In this document: one piece after another, positions 1 through 39,414 of the stretch
How positions within the stretch are numbered: the first letter of the stretch is position 1
Layout of the letters: every line of letters begins with the position of its first letter
Source of the DNA: Natronorubrum sediminis
GTDB taxonomy: Archaea > Halobacteriota > Halobacteria > Halobacteriales > Natrialbaceae
NCBI RefSeq assembly: GCF_900108095.1
Contig: NZ_FNWL01000001.1
Location: forward strand, 1,302,001 to 1,366,000
Length of the DNA stretch: 64,000 nt
Reading direction: 5' to 3'
Notes under the pieces: generated by a model
Seen by the model: the letters and a program-made list of their open reading frames with translations, nothing else
The model's database searches: none
Told to the model about the DNA's origin: nothing
Program-made: the position numbers and the translations under genes

Positions 1-1456
1 GCGCGGGAGCGAGTCGGTCGGCGAGGTCACCGATCAACTCGAGGTCGGTTCTGACGCCAGAGGGCGTCTCCGTCGCCGCGCGAACGCGCGAGACGGTTCG
101 TTCCATGTTCGTCGTCGTGCCCGCCGATTCGCCCCACGTCGCCGCCGGCAGGACGACGTCGGCGAGTTCGACCGTCTCGCTTCGAAAGGCGTCCTGGACG
201 ACGAGGAACGCGTCCTCGAGTTGCTCGCGGACGTGCGTCGTATCCGGCATCCCGGCGAGCGGGTTGGTCGCAACCGCGTAAACGGCGGAGACGTCCTCGC
301 CGATGGCATCCACGATACCGACCGGTCCAGGGCCGGGGTCGGCGGGAAGTCGCGATTCGGGAACGCCCCACGCCTCGGCGACCGCGCTGCGGTGCTCGGC
401 GTCGCCGAAGGGACGGTGACCCGGCCAGGTCCCCTTCGAGGAACAGACGCGCGTTCCCATCGAGTTCGCCTGCCCCGTCAGTGAGAACGGCCCCGAACCG
501 GGGCGAAGGTTGCCCGTCGCCAGACAGAGATCGATCAACGCACCCGACGCGGCGGTTCCGTTGACGCTCTGATTGATCCCCATCCCCCAGTAGAGCAGCG
601 TCGGCGACTCGAGTGCCGTTGCGATTCGGTCGACCATCTCGAGGGTGACGCCGGCGGCCTCGGCCGCGTCGGCGGCGTCCGGAAGCTGGTCGCACAACTC
701 GTCGAATCCGTCGGTCGTGTGGGCGACGAAATGCTCGTCGACGCGGTCGGTTTCGACGATTCGGGCGAGAATCGCCCGCGCGAGGGAAACGTCGCCGCCG
801 GGCTCGAGTGGCACGTGATAGTCCGCGACCTCGACGGTCTCGCTCTCGATGGGGTCGACGACGATCAGTTCGGAGTCCTCGGCGTCCGCGGACTGGTTGA
901 TCCACCGAAACATGACCGGGTGGGCGGCGGCGGGATTGGCTCCCCAGACGAGATGCGTCTCGGCCTCGGGGATGTCGTCGTACGTCGGCGGCGGGGCGTC
1001 GCTACCAAAGGCGTCGTAGTACGCCGTGACGGCCGAGGCCATACACAGCGTCGTGTTGGCGTCGTAGTAGCTGGTTCCGAACCCGCCGCGGGCGAGTTTT
1101 CCGAGCGCGTAGGCCGCCTCGTTGGTCTGTTGGCCACTTCCCAACACGGCGACGCTATCGGGGCCGTCCTCGAGCGCCGTATCGAGGCCTTCAGCCGCGC
1201 GCTCGAGGGCCGTCTCCCAGGTCGTCGCCACCAGTTCGCCGTCTCGTCGGACGAGCGGGCGGGTGAGCCACTTGTCGCCAGGATCGACGGATTCGCTGAT
1301 CCCCCGCTGACAGGCGAGTCCGTTGTTGACCGGGTGGGCGGCGTCGCCACGGACGACGTCGAGGCCGTACCCCTGATCGACGGCTCGATGAACGTGTCCA
1401 CAACCGACGGCACATCGCATGCAGGTCGTCGGCACGAGGTCCGTCACGCACGCCAC
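1..1456 (-). CDS. nasA: Assimilatory nitrate reductase catalytic subunit (molybdopterin oxidoreductase), 3' part outside the window
   Basis: Molybdopterin-dependent oxidoreductase, most likely the cytoplasmic assimilatory nitrate reductase that reduces nitrate to nitrite. About 485 residues are visible. The N terminus carries the [4Fe-4S] cysteines (CMRCAVGC, then GLACQRG about 30 residues on). The molybdopterin-binding region follows with YYDANTTLCMAS, HLVWGANPAAAHP, LLYWGMGINQSVNG and NLRPGSGPFSLTGQANSMG, typical of NasA/NarB/FdhF. No Tat signal is seen, which favours assimilatory over periplasmic-type enzymes. There is an in-frame TAA 45 bases before the first GTG at 1456. A second GTG at 1447 is equally possible, and no ATG exists there. 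The C terminus runs off the left edge. Formate dehydrogenase is the main alternative, but the NasA-like motifs make nitrate reductase more likely. Confidence 0.85.
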   Translation of the reverse strand, partial: MACVTDLVPTTCMRCAVGCGHVHRAVDQGYGLDVVRGDAAHPVNNGLACQRGISESVDPGDKWLTRPLVRRDGELVATTWETALERAAEGLDTALEDGPDSVAVLGSGQQTNEAAYALGKLARGGFGTSYYDANTTLCMASAVTAYYDAFGSDAPPPTYDDIPEAETHLVWGANPAAAHPVMFRWINQSADAEDSELIVVDPIESETVEVADYHVPLEPGGDVSLARAILARIVETDRVDEHFVAHTTDGFDELCDQLPDAADAAEAAGVTLEMVDRIATALESPTLLYWGMGINQSVNGTAASGALIDLCLATGNLRPGSGPFSLTGQANSMGTRVCSSKGTWPGHRPFGDAEHRSAVAEAWGVPESRLPADPGPGPVGIVDAIGEDVSAVYAVATNPLAGMPDTTHVREQLEDAFLVVQDAFRSETVELADVVLPAATWGESAGTTTNMERTVSRVRAATETPSGVRTDLELIGDLADRLAPA

Positions 1457-31033: not shown

Positions 31034-31435
31034 TCAATAGCTCTCTACAGAGACGCCATCGAATAGCTGGAAGTCGTCCGTATTTTTCGTGACAACTGTC
31101 GCGCCTACTTCTTTCGCAACGGCGGCAATCAACAAATCCCCAGAAAGAGAGTTTATCTTGTCCCGGTTCACAGTTTCATCCCGGTGAAATTCAGCTTCTA
31201 ACTCACCAGCAATGACGGCGTGTTCAACCCGAAACGGGAGGATAGTCGTCCACTCGAATTGTGACTCGATCTCAACTGGGTCGAGTACCCCTTGAATCTC
31301 CCTCCCGACTGCAATTTCTTTGATGTTCAGTGTCGTCGTTACAAACTCCTCTTCGTCGTGCGTTTCAAGGTAGTCTCCAACCGCTTCCCGCCCCGCCCAA
31401 TAATGGATGAGAAACGTTGTATCAAGCAGTTTCAT
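31034..31435 (-). CDS. vapC: VapC-family PIN-domain ribonuclease toxin
   Basis: 133-residue PIN domain protein, the toxin of a type II toxin-antitoxin pair that cleaves RNA, usually tRNA or rRNA. The acidic active-site residues appear in order: D in MKLLDTTFLIHYW, E in TTTLNIKEIAVG, and the pair in SLSGDLLIAAVAKE and VTKNTDDFQLF. Its start overlaps the antitoxin gene by 14 bases, typical of vapBC. The lower-GC codon use compared with neighbours suggests recent acquisition. Confidence 0.93.
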   Translation of the reverse strand: MKLLDTTFLIHYWAGREAVGDYLETHDEEEFVTTTLNIKEIAVGREIQGVLDPVEIESQFEWTTILPFRVEHAVIAGELEAEFHRDETVNRDKINSLSGDLLIAAVAKEVGATVVTKNTDDFQLFDGVSVESY

Positions 31436-31700
31436 CGTCTGCCTCTGTCTCCGCAAACTCATCGAGAGCCTCTTGTTGCCGTGTGGAAAGCCCGTCACTC
31501 GTTTGCTCACGGGAGTCCGCAACGATCTGCTCGAGTTCGTCGGCTTCCCCTTCGGAGAGTGTTCCGAATCCCTCACGCCAATCGACAGTCGTGTCATCCA
31601 ACAGACGGTCCATGAGGTCCGTAAAGCTCTCATCCTCTCGTTTTCGTGCCTTTAACCGCTCGTATACGTCCTCTCGGATGCCGATGGTTTTCGCCCCCAT
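31422..31700 (-). CDS. vapB: VapB-family antitoxin
   Basis: 92-residue antitoxin. The N-terminal 35 residues (MGAKTIGIREDVYERLKARK) form a ribbon-helix-helix-like DNA-binding part, and the following helices (SFTDLMDRLLDDT, DELEQIVADSRE) would embrace the VapC active site. It is translated just before vapC with a 14-base overlap. A perfect palindrome GTGTATACAC and flanking GTTTGTG/CACAAAC arms lie directly upstream of its ATG and are the likely autoregulatory operator. Confidence 0.9.
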   Translation of the reverse strand: MGAKTIGIREDVYERLKARKREDESFTDLMDRLLDDTTVDWREGFGTLSEGEADELEQIVADSREQTSDGLSTRQQEALDEFAETEADDETA

Positions 31701-31701
31701 A

Positions 31702-31723
31702 GTTTGTGTATACACGCACAAAC
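31702..31723. promoter_or_regulatory. Palindromic operator upstream of vapB
   Basis: Inverted repeat with arms GTTTGTG (31702-31708) and CACAAAC (31717-31723), containing an inner palindrome GTGTATACAC. It ends two bases from the vapB ATG (31700, minus strand), a position where VapBC binding would block transcription initiation. Operator function is inferred from position and symmetry. Confidence 0.6.
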
Positions 31724-31877
31724 ACAAAGTGCTTGTCGGTGTTTTCAACGCAGAACGAAATGAAGGAAGCGTACCACCTTTTTTCGCTCGAGTCCGCTTC
31801 ATTCATCTCTCGCGCAAAAATCCGTCTGGCGAGAGCAGAGTTCTCGCTGACCGTCGCTCACGCCGTTCGCGAAGAGA

Positions 31878-31945
31878 CCAAAAAAGCCGCTCGCTTCCGG
31901 TGGTCGCTCGCGATCTTACTTCTCAACCGTTTCTTCGACGATCTC
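31878..31945. repeat. 68-bp direct repeat, distal copy
   Basis: Matches 32003-32070 with three mismatches over 68 bases, 125 bases apart. On the minus strand it reads the last codons of the restriction-modification gene's former 3' end (EIVEETVEK then stop) plus the following non-coding bases. It is therefore a duplicated gene end, not a free-standing repeat. Confidence 0.8.
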
Positions 31946-32002
31946 AGATCCACCTTTTTCCGCTCGGGTTCACTTCGCTCACCCGTCGCGCAAAAACCTG
32001 GG

Positions 32003-32070
32003 CCAAAAAAGCCGCTCGCTTCCGGTGGTCGCTCGCGGTCCTACTTCTCAACCGCTTCTTCGACGATCTC
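32003..32070. repeat. 68-bp direct repeat, proximal copy
   Basis: Partner of 31878-31945. It contains the last codons (EIVEEAVEK) and stop of the orphaned restriction-modification 3' end and continues past the stop, so the duplication spans the gene boundary. Confidence 0.8.
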
Positions 32071-32565
32071 GATTTCTTCCTCCGTCAACCCGTACAGTTC
32101 GTAGACGATTTCGTCGATCAGTTCGTCCGTTTTCTCGATTTTCGCTTCGAGTTCCTCGGCTCGCTCTTTCGTCTCGAGATAGCTTTCCAACCCGTCCCGA
32201 ACGTCGTCGACGGCGGGGAGGGTGAGCTTTCGCAAGCGATCCACGAGCGAGTTGGTCTTCGTGGCGGTTTCGCGGAAGTTTGCAAAGCCGCCGGCTTCGT
32301 CCACCGCGACGGGGACGAACGCCTCGATCAGGTCGGCTTCGGTTTCCGTCAGGTCGGAAATCTCGAGGGCGGGTTCGGGGTCGGTTTCGGTGTAGCCCCA
32401 GCGGTCGGTTTCGAACTCGTCCTCGTTTTCGGGTTTGTACCGGGCTGTGAGATGAATCTCGAGGGACGTGGGTGACTCGCGTTCGATTTCGACGGTGCCG
32501 ACGCGGAGGTTCTCGCGGTCCTCGGCGGTGTCGGTGAGGATGGAGTCAGCGGCTCCTTCTGGTGG
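32041..32565 (-). pseudogene. Orphaned 3' end of an older Eco57I-like restriction-modification gene
   Basis: 174 codons, open and in the same reading frame as the intact gene upstream, beginning directly after its TAA stop. There is no start codon of its own at the beginning. The translation reads as the C-terminal part of a type IIG/IIL enzyme: a beta-rich part (NLRVGTVEIERESPTSLEIH), then a coiled-coil end (TKERAEELEAKIEKTDELID) and ELYGLTEEEIEIVEEA, a signature of the C terminus in Eco57I-type proteins. GC is high like the chromosome, unlike the AT-rich DNA just before it. It is best read as what remains of the previous specificity end after replacement by a foreign segment. Translation from an internal GTG at 32304 cannot be excluded. 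Confidence 0.75.
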
Positions 32566-35500
32566 TTAGTTAAGTCCCATATCTGACAAACTCATGCCAT
32601 CATTATATGAACCAAAATGATCTCGTATGTCAAGATTTAACGACTTGTGTTTCTGATTTGCGTTCAATATCTTCCTGGCAGATTTGGAGAGTAGTTCATT
32701 TGCTGATGTCTTCTTGTCAATATCCGAACTTAAGCTCATATCAAGTTGCATCTTAATATCTCGAGCTATTTCCTCTTCAGACGGTATTCCAAATGGATAG
32801 AGGTAGTCTCGCTTAAATGTAAAGTATCCTCCCCGGAGTGCATACCCTGTTCGTGAAATGAAGAACCAAAGTAAATTGCTATTCAATATGGCTAATAATG
32901 CTTCTAGCCTGATATTCGAATTCTCTCTTAGGAGAATTCCGTAAACCTTAGTTTTATGATAGTTTTCATCTTCATCTATAGTGAAACTACCGCCATAACC
33001 TATTTCCGGGGTTAATATCTTGTCCTGTTCAAACTTTACTAAATTTTTTGGATAAACATAGTCGTACCACCGTTTATTGTCCATTTTCCCTCCTTCTCTC
33101 CCCCGTAATGAATCTTCATGCTTCTTCAAATATTGATATGCATTAGGGTACCTATTGCTTAGAGTGTTTTCAGGTATGAAATCTGCGTCTTTCTCGTTGT
33201 CTTCTCCTGCAGTTAGCTCATATGGGAAAATAACTCTGCGATCAGTGTCAATAGGATCATACCGTCCAACATCTTCACCCTTTAGGAACGGTTCTAAGAT
33301 TTCCGACTCTAATTTGTGAACTTCACCATCTTCTTGACTTTTTACAAGCTCATGTTTCCCTTCTGACCCTATATGTTCCATAAGGTAGATACTATCAGCA
33401 CTGGTCTGAAGGCCCACATATACCTCTGAAATGTCTTTGAGGGATCGTTCTTGAGAATCAATCTGTTCAAGAACTTGTGTGACGTCAATGGAGTTGAATA
33501 TCCACTGAGATTCATCATAGTCAGATATTTTCCTAAAGTCAAGATCAGTAATAGAGGCCAATTCGCTTGGCGAAAAGCGAGCATAGGAGAAGTCATCAGA
33601 CCTCTTACCAGAAAGGATTAGAATGCAAGTATAAACAGAAGCTCCTTCAAATACCTGCTCATGGCCAAATGAAATTATTTCATGTAACGCACTCTTATCT
33701 GATATGAACTTTCTTAGTCCTTTTCCAGAACGGTTCCTAAAGAATTTATGTGGCTCAATAAACCCGACCAATCCGTCTTTATTTATTAGTTCATATGACT
33801 TTTCGCTAAAGGACATATAGAGGTCAAAGTTTCCAGTGGACGAGTCGTACTTTTCAGACAGGTAAGCGGCCTGTTTTGGTGTATTGGATTTTAGCGACTG
33901 TATCCGGACATATGGCGGATTCCCAATAACCGCATCAAACCCAGCATCCTCACGTTTCTCCCCATCCTGATCGAAGAACACCTCGGGATACTCGAGTTCC
34001 CAGTGGAAAAACGCCTCCTCGGTACACATCGCCTGTGCGCTCTGGAACCAGCCCTTTTCGCGCACCTCGAGCCACTCGTCTTCGTCGTCGATCGCTCGAG
34101 CCATGCGTTCGTAGGCCCCTTCGGGCACGTCCAGATCGAACCGTTCGGCCGTGTGCACGTTGGTCAACTCGAACAGGCGCTGATAGAACGGATCAGCCCG
34201 CACCTCGTCGTACAACTCCTCCATCGACTTGATGTCCTCGAGCGTCTCGTTGTCGATCTCGAGTAACTCCTGCATCCGCTCCATGACGTGCTCTAAGGTA
34301 TCCTGTCGGACTCGAGCCAACGCCTGCTGGAGGGTCAACTGTCCGTCGTTGGTTTCGGTGTCACTCGAGAGCACGTCCGTCACGTCCGAGCCGACCAACG
34401 AGTTGCCCGCCTTGAGGTGGTGATCCAGAAACGCCAGTGGCTGATCCGCCGCGAGCGTCTCGAGCCACATCGACAGCTTCGCGAGTTCGACGGCCATCCC
34501 GTTCAGGTCGACGCCGTAGATACACTCCTTCGCGACGTCCCGACGAACCCGCTGCTCGTCGAACGCCGTCGCCTCCTCGATCTCGCGCACCTCGCTCATC
34601 AACTGCTCTGCGAGGTACTCCGTCGCCCGCGTCAGGAAGTGCCCACTCCCCATCGCCGGATCGAGAATCTTCAGATCGGTCACCCGCCGATAGAACGCCC
34701 CCAGATACTCGTGGGTACCGGGCTCGAAGCCTTGCTCGGTGAGATCCGCTTTGATTTCCTCGACCAGCGGCCCCACCGTCTCCTCGACGATGTAGGTCAC
34801 CACGTAGTCCGGCGTGTAGTACGCCCCCGTCGCCTTTCGCTCACCTTCGTCGTTGACCACGTAGAGCCCACCCTCGGAAACGGTTTCGACCGCATCCGCC
34901 ACCGACACCTCCGTGGCCGGTTTCCAAACCTCGCCGCCGTCGTCCGTCACCGCGGCGTACTCCGCCGGCGCGATCCGAAACTGGTGCTCGAGCAACCCCT
35001 CGTAGACGCTCCCGAGGTGTCGCGTATCGAGATCCGCGTAGTCGGCCAACACGTACCGACCCTCGTCGTTCTCGGTCGTCGAAATTCGATAGATGACCTC
35101 CGCGAGGTGCCGGTTGCTCACCTCGTGGTCCGTCAGAAACCCGTGTTTCTCGGTGTTGAATAGCCCGCCGTTGTACGGCGGAATGCCGAGTGACTCCTCG
35201 CCCTCGTCGACCAACCGAAACAGGTCCTCGAGACGACTCCACATCGTCGTGGAGTGCTCGCTATAGGTGTCGAACCCGTCGTCGACCTCGCCGATCTCCT
35301 CGTGAATCTCGAGACGCAGTTCGTCCAGACTGAAGTTCTCCTCGTACTCCTCGACTGCGTCTGCCCCTTCGGGATGGATCAGGCCCCGTGATTCTGCATA
35401 GAGGACGAACATCAACCGGTAGAGCAACACGAGCGACTGCTCTTTGAGTTCCCCCAACCCGTCCTCGTCGTCGGGGTCGATGTCGAGGTCGTTCGTCTCG

Positions 35501-36282
35501 ACGAACCCGCGTCCGAGCACTCGCACCGCGGTGAAGACGTTGTCCTGTAGATCCTCACCTAGCTCCTGGGCGACCGTCTCGCTCTCCGACCAGACCGAAT
35601 CGAGGAACGTCGTCCCGCCACTCGCCTGAAACGCCGCCGGCCGGAAAAACAGATAGAAGTATTTGAACGCCTCGAGATCACCACGTTCGAGCAGTTCCGG
35701 CAAGTCGATCTCGTAGTACGTCTGCGTCTCGTAATCCTTGGTCCCGTAGAGTCGCCACTTCCGACCGTTCGTCAAGACACCCCACTGGATCGACTCGGGC
35801 GTCCGCTCGAGGTAGTGTTTGACCTGATGGGAGGCGTTTCGATACGGCCGTTGTTCACTGAAACGAGTCGAGAAGTCGGCGTCCCACTGTTTAGCTTCGA
35901 CGAGACCGATCCCGCGATCGAACAGATCCGACGATTCTTCGGTTCGCAGATAGACCTCTGCGGCATCGCGTCGGGCCTCCGGATCGTCGAACAGCAGTAC
36001 GTCGACGTAGCCCCCACCGTCGGGTAGCGTCGTCTCCACGTTCGTCCCGAAACCGAGCACGTCGAGTACCTCGTCGATCCAGTTGTCGATCAGCGGATCT
36101 TCCTTGTACCCCTCGACTAACCCCGACTCGAGGTCGTACAGTGATTGAAGCGCAGCCATCGCCTCCCCCGCAGCCTCATCACAGTCCCACTCCTCGCGAT
36201 CCTGAATCCGCTCGTCGAGATAGTGCCCGGAGAAGAGATTCGAGTTCGCATACGGACGATCTGACAGCGTCGCCTGACTCAT
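32566..36282 (-). CDS. Eco57I-like type IIG/IIL restriction-modification enzyme with AT-rich specificity end
   Basis: 1238-residue single-chain enzyme expected to methylate adenine and cut DNA. The N-terminal region about 60-140 holds a candidate PD-(D/E)xK nuclease (D94 in GGYVDVLLF, E129-x-K131 in GLVEAKQW). A helical part leads to the methyltransferase: SAM motif DPAMGSGHFL at 541-550 and catalytic NPPY at 788-791. The C-terminal 400 residues resemble a TaqI-like target recognition domain (WFFISRTGYALRGGYFTFK). From about 33930 downwards, that is just after NPPY, base composition drops to roughly 35-40 percent GC by eye and codon use changes completely, showing the C-terminal part came from a different donor. 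A pure methylase (BREX PglX-like) is the main alternative, but no BREX genes are nearby. Confidence 0.9.
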   Translation of the reverse strand: MSQATLSDRPYANSNLFSGHYLDERIQDREEWDCDEAAGEAMAALQSLYDLESGLVEGYKEDPLIDNWIDEVLDVLGFGTNVETTLPDGGGYVDVLLFDDPEARRDAAEVYLRTEESSDLFDRGIGLVEAKQWDADFSTRFSEQRPYRNASHQVKHYLERTPESIQWGVLTNGRKWRLYGTKDYETQTYYEIDLPELLERGDLEAFKYFYLFFRPAAFQASGGTTFLDSVWSESETVAQELGEDLQDNVFTAVRVLGRGFVETNDLDIDPDDEDGLGELKEQSLVLLYRLMFVLYAESRGLIHPEGADAVEEYEENFSLDELRLEIHEEIGEVDDGFDTYSEHSTTMWSRLEDLFRLVDEGEESLGIPPYNGGLFNTEKHGFLTDHEVSNRHLAEVIYRISTTENDEGRYVLADYADLDTRHLGSVYEGLLEHQFRIAPAEYAAVTDDGGEVWKPATEVSVADAVETVSEGGLYVVNDEGERKATGAYYTPDYVVTYIVEETVGPLVEEIKADLTEQGFEPGTHEYLGAFYRRVTDLKILDPAMGSGHFLTRATEYLAEQLMSEVREIEEATAFDEQRVRRDVAKECIYGVDLNGMAVELAKLSMWLETLAADQPLAFLDHHLKAGNSLVGSDVTDVLSSDTETNDGQLTLQQALARVRQDTLEHVMERMQELLEIDNETLEDIKSMEELYDEVRADPFYQRLFELTNVHTAERFDLDVPEGAYERMARAIDDEDEWLEVREKGWFQSAQAMCTEEAFFHWELEYPEVFFDQDGEKREDAGFDAVIGNPPYVRIQSLKSNTPKQAAYLSEKYDSSTGNFDLYMSFSEKSYELINKDGLVGFIEPHKFFRNRSGKGLRKFISDKSALHEIISFGHEQVFEGASVYTCILILSGKRSDDFSYARFSPSELASITDLDFRKISDYDESQWIFNSIDVTQVLEQIDSQERSLKDISEVYVGLQTSADSIYLMEHIGSEGKHELVKSQEDGEVHKLESEILEPFLKGEDVGRYDPIDTDRRVIFPYELTAGEDNEKDADFIPENTLSNRYPNAYQYLKKHEDSLRGREGGKMDNKRWYDYVYPKNLVKFEQDKILTPEIGYGGSFTIDEDENYHKTKVYGILLRENSNIRLEALLAILNSNLLWFFISRTGYALRGGYFTFKRDYLYPFGIPSEEEIARDIKMQLDMSLSSDIDKKTSANELLSKSARKILNANQKHKSLNLDIRDHFGSYNDGMSLSDMGLN

Positions 36283-36342
36283 CTTGTCCCCTACCTCGAA
36301 TTGTCACGACAAGAATCCACTGGTAGGGACGGTTCGAATTAC

Positions 36343-39024
<2,682 letters not shown>

Positions 39025-39414
39025 TAGAGATAGATACGTGGTGCACGTTCAAGCGAATTGTGACTCAGAAACCATGAATTACTCTCTAGTCGACTTTCGA
39101 AAGTAAAGTGCGAAGCTGCCGATCCGGTAGTTGCCAAACTTATCGGACGAGAGTCGGGCGCGATCCTGTGAACGCACGTCCCGCCATCCTACCGACCACC
39201 GTCGTGATGTGCGGGCTGAGAGGTACGTTGTCTGACAACGTCGACGCCGAGGGCGACGATTGCCTTGCGGTCACGGCGACGACGGCATCGAGTGGCGTTC
39301 GGATCACAGCTCTCGAGTCGACCATCGTTCGGTACTTTCCTCGGTCCGTCGGTTCTTCCAGTGTGACGGGAAGTGTGGCTAACCACTAAGCATGATGGTC
39401 AATAACTAGCATGT
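39025..39414. promoter_or_regulatory. Divergent control region between copA and the SHOCT-copB pair
   Basis: 390 bases without a gene. A perfect 12-base palindrome ACTTTCGAAAGT lies at 39093-39104, about 70 bases upstream of copA, inside an AT-rich stretch, and is the best candidate operator. No other strong symmetry was found. The two transcription units presumably share metal-dependent regulation. Confidence 0.45.

Follow-up and report, generated by a model that had tools for sequence, protein, structure and literature searches.

An apparently exchanged target recognition domain and an in-frame stop codon in an Eco57I-like restriction-modification gene of Natronorubrum sediminis

Introduction

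Does a stop codon that coincides with a border in base composition arrive with foreign DNA, or does it arise within a gene that is otherwise whole? This question is raised by a minus-strand gene in a stretch of 64,000 nucleotides of Natronorubrum sediminis (contig NZ_FNWL01000001.1 of assembly GCF_900108095.1, positions 1,302,001 to 1,366,000; hereafter the window, whose own numbering is used throughout). Judged from its sequence, the gene is a member of the Eco57I-like Type IIG restriction-modification (RM) family of Halobacteria, its window allele being interrupted by a TAA. An earlier note on this DNA had proposed that a donor segment covering the catalytic-to-recognition half, with its own stop, replaced the resident one and left the old 3' end orphaned in frame downstream. 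We favor, with a probability of about 0.8, one gene of 1413 codons, in which the target recognition domain (TRD) was exchanged and a later CAA-to-TAA change cut off the C-terminal module (C module).

Halobacteria are relatively rich in Type IIG systems according to the available part of one study (PMC10609329), and the available text of a survey describes their RM genes as transferred and poorly conserved (PMC6471742).

Organization of the gene

The open reading frame (ORF) 32566-36282(-) starts with ATG at 36282, encodes 1238 amino acids and stops with the TAA at 32566-32568. As the earlier note had it, exactly 174 further open codons follow in the same frame up to a TAG at 32041-32043; the whole frame, 36282-32041(-), has 1413 codons with the TAA as codon 1239, and the window allele is therefore not a complete ORF. 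The signature given for the end of the downstream stretch, ELYGLTEEEIEIVE, is found within these 174 codons.

Four parts can be distinguished. The N-terminal part (residues 1-790, 33913..36282(-)), the putative first homology arm, is conserved and comprises a nuclease-like segment and the methyltransferase motifs up to GNPP; it matches the Pfam models Eco57I (140.8 bits, cut-off 25.3) and N6_Mtase (60.8 bits, cut-off 20.4), and the GNPPY at 33924-33910 marks an N6-adenine methyltransferase domain with NPPY. The nuclease-like segment scores 24.1 bits with MmeI_N, under the cut-off of 27, and its VEAK stretch was recognized by eye only. The AT-rich block (residues 791-1238, 32569..33912(-)), the part that appears to have been exchanged, holds the rest of the methyltransferase fold and a TaqI-like TRD, placed within the same chain by TaqI_C (40.3 bits, cut-off 26.5; residues 1050-1163). 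The TAA (codon 1239, 32566..32568(-)) takes, by comparison of C modules, the place of a conserved Gln, and the C module, the "orphan" of the earlier note (residues 1240-1413 and the TAG, 32041..32565(-)), contains a predicted long helix and would form the second homology arm.

Exchange of the recognition block

The same locus in a genome that probably belongs to the same genus (G001) keeps both flanks and carries a different TRD. At the DNA level, G001 matches the window over 33914-39165 with 93.7% identity and over 31932-32565 with 93.2%, while across 32566-33913 there is no match at E 1e-5. At the protein level, identity is 96% for residues 1-500, 94% for residues 501-790, 21% for the TRD and 95% for the C module; it ends after GNPP and returns around GLxQ/PPEG. 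Since the exchanged block ends at this conserved joint, the C module appears to have stayed in place. The TRDs that are closest to that of the window, beyond its own, among 392 genomes of the order were found in G303 (family f4, 62%), G373 (f4, 50%) and G257 (f5, 49%), all in other haloarchaeal families.

Trees of the two parts conflict. In approximately unbiased (AU) tests, the data of the N-terminal part reject the clade formed by the TRDs (10 of 38 rows; p 1.06e-5), and the TRD data reject the grouping of the window with G001 (p 5.5e-61); one long branch was flagged in these trees. The replacement of the segment from the catalytic to the recognition half, which the earlier note had read from composition, is well supported by the syntenic congener and by this conflict. 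The exchange separates the lineages of the window and of G001, and either of them may have changed last. In G021, G043 and G174 the gene matches and the surroundings do not align with the window, which suggests that the gene itself also moves.

The donor was not found, the best TRD match being the one of 62%. One scan of viral contigs gave seven pattern stretches, none of them a relative; 20 listed matches out of 22 in phage records are only 24-29% identical; and a plasmid search with residues 1-1238, which include the TRD, gave 62% as the best match over the whole query.

The GC-rich, AT-rich, GC-rich pattern described earlier is seen in 200-bp windows (0.57-0.67 over 33900-36300, 0.36-0.42 at window starts 32600-33700, and 0.55-0.65 at starts 32000-32400). 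By segment, GC is 0.60 and 0.61 for residues 1-500 and 501-790 (third-position GC 0.78 and 0.80), 0.39 for the TRD (residues 795-1190; third-position GC 0.36) and 0.60 for the C part (0.76). The upstream break lies at the NPP of NPPY (GNPP codons 33924-33913); it had been correctly placed near this motif, whereas the position of about 33930, given as just after it, lies before it on this strand.

The relatives used here and below come from the best-scoring matches (at most 30 loci per genome search) and are not a random sample. TRD GC is below that of the N-terminal part in all 30 full-length relatives and below that of the C part in 29, with means of 0.61, 0.44 and 0.58 for N-terminal part, TRD and C part. 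The corresponding third-position means are 0.80, 0.44 and 0.71, the TRD being lower than the N-terminal part in 30 of 30 and lower than the C part in 27 of 30. Low GC of the TRD is thus ordinary in this family, and composition alone is no mark of recent transfer. The TRDs may stay AT-rich because they come from an AT-rich donor pool of their own, because codon selection is relaxed, or because conversion raises the GC of the arms. Relatives with the same composition and the same stop had been named in advance as a result that would speak against the proposal; the composition was found in relatives, the stop was not. The window genome also harbors an intact paralogue (L002; G000 contig 5, 182073-185819) of 1433 amino acids, 42% identical to the window gene, whose TRD is GC-rich (0.61, compared with 0.37-0.55 in the TRDs of the other 29 relatives).

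The C-terminal module and the in-frame TAA

When the pieces before and after the TAA were searched by TBLASTN against relatives, both were found there adjacent head to tail and in one frame. The 30 long-frame relatives (1343-1445 amino acids) carry CAA or CAG (Gln) at the TAA site in 28 cases, Glu in L027 and Pro in L037; these relatives had been picked because more than 1100 open codons precede their C module, so that the fusion of the two parts is true there by selection. A second count, made without this selection, took all loci in hand whose match starts near the first residue of the module. Among its 64 distinct C modules, 57 have Gln at the joint (CAA in 30, CAG in 27), four differ in the residue or in the position of the joint (L027, L037, L095 and L103), two are solo copies without a joint (L069 and L132), and one, that of the window, has TAA; no other module of the 64 has a stop there. 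Gln makes up at least 90% of the joint column in a 42-row alignment, where the next Pro is invariant.

Normally the C module is fused: of 100 nearly complete matches in 199 genomes, 82 belong to frames of 1200 amino acids or more, seven in frames of 800-1199 and eleven, the window included, in shorter ones. Six of these eleven were inspected, namely the window, G057 (near a contig end), G084 (an insertion), G113 (at a contig start), and G142 and G152 (solo copies). In the window, there is no start codon ahead of codon 88 of the C module, which speaks against the module as a separate gene. No homologue of the whole module that forms a separate gene with its own start, a finding that the earlier note had said would count against it, was found; the solo copies of G142 and G152 begin at module codons 11-13, their starts being uninspected.

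The 174 codons, to judge by these alignments, are the normal C terminus of a Type IIG enzyme of about 1400 amino acids. The earlier claim that they represent the C terminus of the same enzyme type therefore stands, while their description as an orphaned old terminus does not, given the fusion in 82 of the 100 matches. Since the module is normally fused, Gln is the normal residue at the stop site and an early start is lacking, we read the frame as a single gene. The TAA is most simply explained by a nonsense mutation from C to T in a CAA codon for Gln, or else by a sequencing error, rather than as the stop of a donor.

Compared with G001, the C module (174 codons) has 30 synonymous and 12 residue-changing differences, and residues 1-790 have 116 and 56, respectively; in this comparison amino-acid change is not elevated downstream of the TAA. 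Such undiminished constraint fits a recent mutation and a sequencing error alike, and we infer that the stop is one or the other.

Weighing of the explanations

The events may be reconstructed as follows. The TRD block (residues 791-1238) was most likely swapped by homologous recombination between two conserved arms, the putative crossover sites being the N-terminal part up to GNPP and the C module from GLxQ/PPEG onward. The block belongs to a TRD lineage that occurs mainly in other families of haloarchaea, and the recognition sequence would have changed along with the TRD. A later, recent CAA-to-TAA change would then have cut off the C module, and the loss of this module, with its long helix packing on the TRD, would inactivate or cripple the enzyme.

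Several points weigh against this reconstruction. The TAA lies exactly at the cassette joint, a position that chance alone would give in a few percent of cases: 74 codons of the frame, the TAA counted, become or are stops by one transition, and in the joint stretches listed (codons 780-800 and 1225-1255) only codons 1239 and 795 are among them. The groups compared in the AU tests were named after the identities were known, and the trees were quick ones. A base error, finally, could have produced the TAA.

The last point, developed into the explanation that the gene is intact and the TAA arose in sequencing or assembly, is the strongest rival, which we regard as unlikely but deserving of attention. 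In its favor, the change is a single transition at a Gln codon, and the 1413-codon frame is otherwise open and under constraint; against it, the assembly of the window genome has 6 contigs and is 99.2% complete, and substitution errors are rarer than indels. Furthermore, the gene with the closest TRD (62%; L087 of G303) has an internal TAA of its own elsewhere, at about 2500 and within the TRD, so broken alleles do occur.

Somewhat less probable is that the stop is real and the 1238-residue product remains active, if only as a methyltransferase, the loss at the module border being tolerable or reversible by the next exchange. The Pfam domains found are all located before the TAA, and by sequence the methyltransferase CamA aligns only to residues 776-1190, as this explanation would have it. 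The predicted structure points the other way. An AlphaFold2 model of residues 787-1413 (pLDDT 89.1, pTM 0.80) ends the C module with a long helix at residues 1358-1396 (572-610 of the model) and shows a beta-rich insert between the TRD helix and this last helix. The structural matches to CamA (7lni_A; Z about 26, rmsd 3.7, 393 residues, model 1..613 to chain 164..577) and to M.BseCI (Z about 26, reaching model residues 617-620) extend into the last helix, where the ranges give only the first and the last matched residue, among at most 50 entries listed; these matches comprise 373-398 residues with 20-22% identity. In the model, the last helix would correspond to the C-terminal end of CamA and M.BseCI and would support the TRD. 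The C module by itself matches a Type I specificity-subunit model weakly (E 3.4e-4), and its own fold, predicted without relatives, was uninformative (pLDDT 55.8). Besides, the 30 relatives keep the module at 55-95% identity, and no other genome with this stop was seen. As the stop removes a predicted helix that is matched in CamA and M.BseCI, the truncated protein is probably crippled or inactive.

That the donor segment carried its own stop, as the earlier note had it, agrees with the position of the TAA exactly at the end of the AT-rich block and is nevertheless very improbable, because related TRDs are followed, after a Gln codon at the joint (CAG in G303 and G043, CAA in G174, G161 and G061), by this same C module, and none of the other 63 distinct modules has a stop there. 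No donor ending at this point was seen, but the donor itself was not found either. The view that the AT-rich stretch is a fast-evolving, AT-biased domain without any exchange, which the family-wide composition (30 of 30 relatives) would suit, is scarcely credible in the face of a syntenic locus with 93% DNA identity and TRDs only 21% identical, a window TRD nearer to those of other families, and the strong conflict of the trees.

Relation to known systems

The gene resembles the Type IIG or Type IIC enzymes (the Eco57I, MmeI, BpuSI and TaqII class) in combining a methyltransferase, a TaqI_C-type TRD and a nuclease-like N-terminal part in one chain; it differs in that the window allele is interrupted, its activity is predicted from sequence, and its model has the beta-rich insert. 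TaqII and TaqIII are described, in the available portion of PMC5587805, as twins that differ mainly in the TRD, and the differences between the window gene and its relatives are likewise concentrated there. Exchange of TRDs between conserved regions is classical for Type I S subunits, according to an excerpt of PMC3874165, and the methyltransferases of Helicobacter pylori likewise exchange TRDs, mutations having truncated many of its Type III M and Type IIG genes, as stated in part of PMC3983042. As far as these excerpts go, those cases concern separate S subunits with two TRDs or exchange within a species, whereas the window gene has one TRD inside a single chain, with relatives in other families. 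CamA and M.BseCI, the best structural matches of residues 787-1413, are in contrast stand-alone methyltransferases without the N-terminal part. Broken Type IIG pieces are also known from another haloarchaeon, Haloferax volcanii (HVO_A0006 and HVO_A0237; available text of PMC4389544); by their description these are an N-terminal fragment and a protein without the N-terminal part, while the window has a near-complete gene cut at one codon.

Among PADLOC models, DISARM DrmMI scores best with the window gene (E 5e-102), and there is a weak match to BREX PglX (BREX_1_MTaseX, 103.8 bits, cut-off 500). Eight neighboring ORFs between 26943 and 43388 gave no PADLOC match to defence genes (drmA, drmB, drmC or BREX). 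DISARM is therefore rejected despite the DrmMI score, as is BREX, for which the PglX score is also far below the cut-off.

Neighborhood and gene remnants

Neighbors with Pfam matches are two P-type ATPases, HisG, SpoIIM, DUF7342 and a VapB/PIN pair (31034..31802(-)), which consists of a VapB-like antitoxin ORF (31422-31802; VAPB_antitox) and a PIN-domain ORF within 31034-31633 (PIN). The pair is a neighbor and no part of the enzyme. Self-comparison revealed a partial second copy (94%, 72 bp; 31878..31949(-)) of the last codons of the gene and the region downstream of it (32003-32073). The same locus in G001 has neither the pair nor the second copy, and no match to the window between 30853 and 31878. 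In L075 (7578-13528; G143), three further short C-terminal copies lie behind the gene, with ORFs that look like toxin-antitoxin genes between them.

The pair beside the duplication, together with L075, prompted the idea that duplicated 3' ends allow toxin-antitoxin modules to accumulate behind genes of this family. No general pattern of this kind was seen, as far as the families were listed: a Pfam scan of 145 ORFs, taken from the surroundings of 28 solo C-terminal stretches (24 loci), matched 41 families (no control set), and the 25 listed include VAPB_antitox with two members and PIN, PIN_10, DUF433 and DUF5615 with one each; some L075 ORFs in this set were entered by hand for overlapping ones, and ten long ORFs had been covered by an earlier scan. 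Silent TRD cassettes behind the gene were rejected for L075, L084 and L079 only. The extra C-terminal copies in L075 and L084 have no TRD match in TBLASTN, and in L079 the gene is split by a stretch with ORFs that resemble transposases by their letters.

The order has many short solo 3' ends of the gene; 31 partial C-module matches were found in 23 of the 199 genomes in frames of at most 200 amino acids, and most look like decayed remnants. A remnant in L078 (8536-8901; G106) joins the first 37 residues directly to C-module residues 76-162, the gene having undergone an internal deletion. A family of ORFs of about 450 amino acids lies directly before a solo C-terminal piece in six genomes (L080:6793-8148(+), L085:6189-7547(+), L118:2617-3963(+), L124:4463-5836(-), L125:2721-4064(+) and L132:986-2350(+)). 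Its members are 49-74% identical to each other and have no Pfam or PADLOC match, and their ends look PD-(D/E)XK-like by eye. Relatives at E 1e-20 occur in 71 of the 199 genomes, and the scar was seen in one of ten loci inspected, that of the genome of the query itself (G055).

Exchange across the family

Fourteen genes, the window included, have N-terminal parts at least 84% identical to that of the window and represent 12 TRD types at a 50% threshold; their median pairwise identities are 0.88 for the N-terminal part, 0.23 for the TRD and 0.78 for the C part. From the set of full-length relatives two rows were dropped (L006, of the same sequence as L026, and L032, with its start cut), and genes cut by contig ends and L011 (broken frame) were left out. 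In 29 of the 30 full-length relatives, residues 1-790 are 61-96% and the C part 66-95% identical to the window protein; the exception is the paralogue L002, with flanks 44-55% identical. By these alignments the similarity of the flanks to those of the relatives is far beyond chance, and the survey suggests that TRD exchange is ordinary in this family, the rule and not a one-off. In the literature, which was covered in part, we noticed no report of TRD cassette exchange in this haloarchaeal family, which is weak evidence of novelty.

In summary, the locus is a clean natural case of the exchange of a specificity domain in a single-chain archaeal restriction enzyme, with the same locus, the same flanks and a different TRD. 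It corrects a tempting misreading, as a stop at a composition border need not come with foreign DNA, and the persistent AT-richness of exchanged blocks within genes that are otherwise GC-rich poses a testable question. More tentatively, and as a doubtful extension, the family could be an exchange platform across Halobacteria, in which GC-rich arms receive TRDs from an AT-rich pool that moves between families and a stop such as the present one is a reversible off-state. If so, the copy of nearly every species would have a specificity of its own, and the next exchange would clear the stop at the joint.

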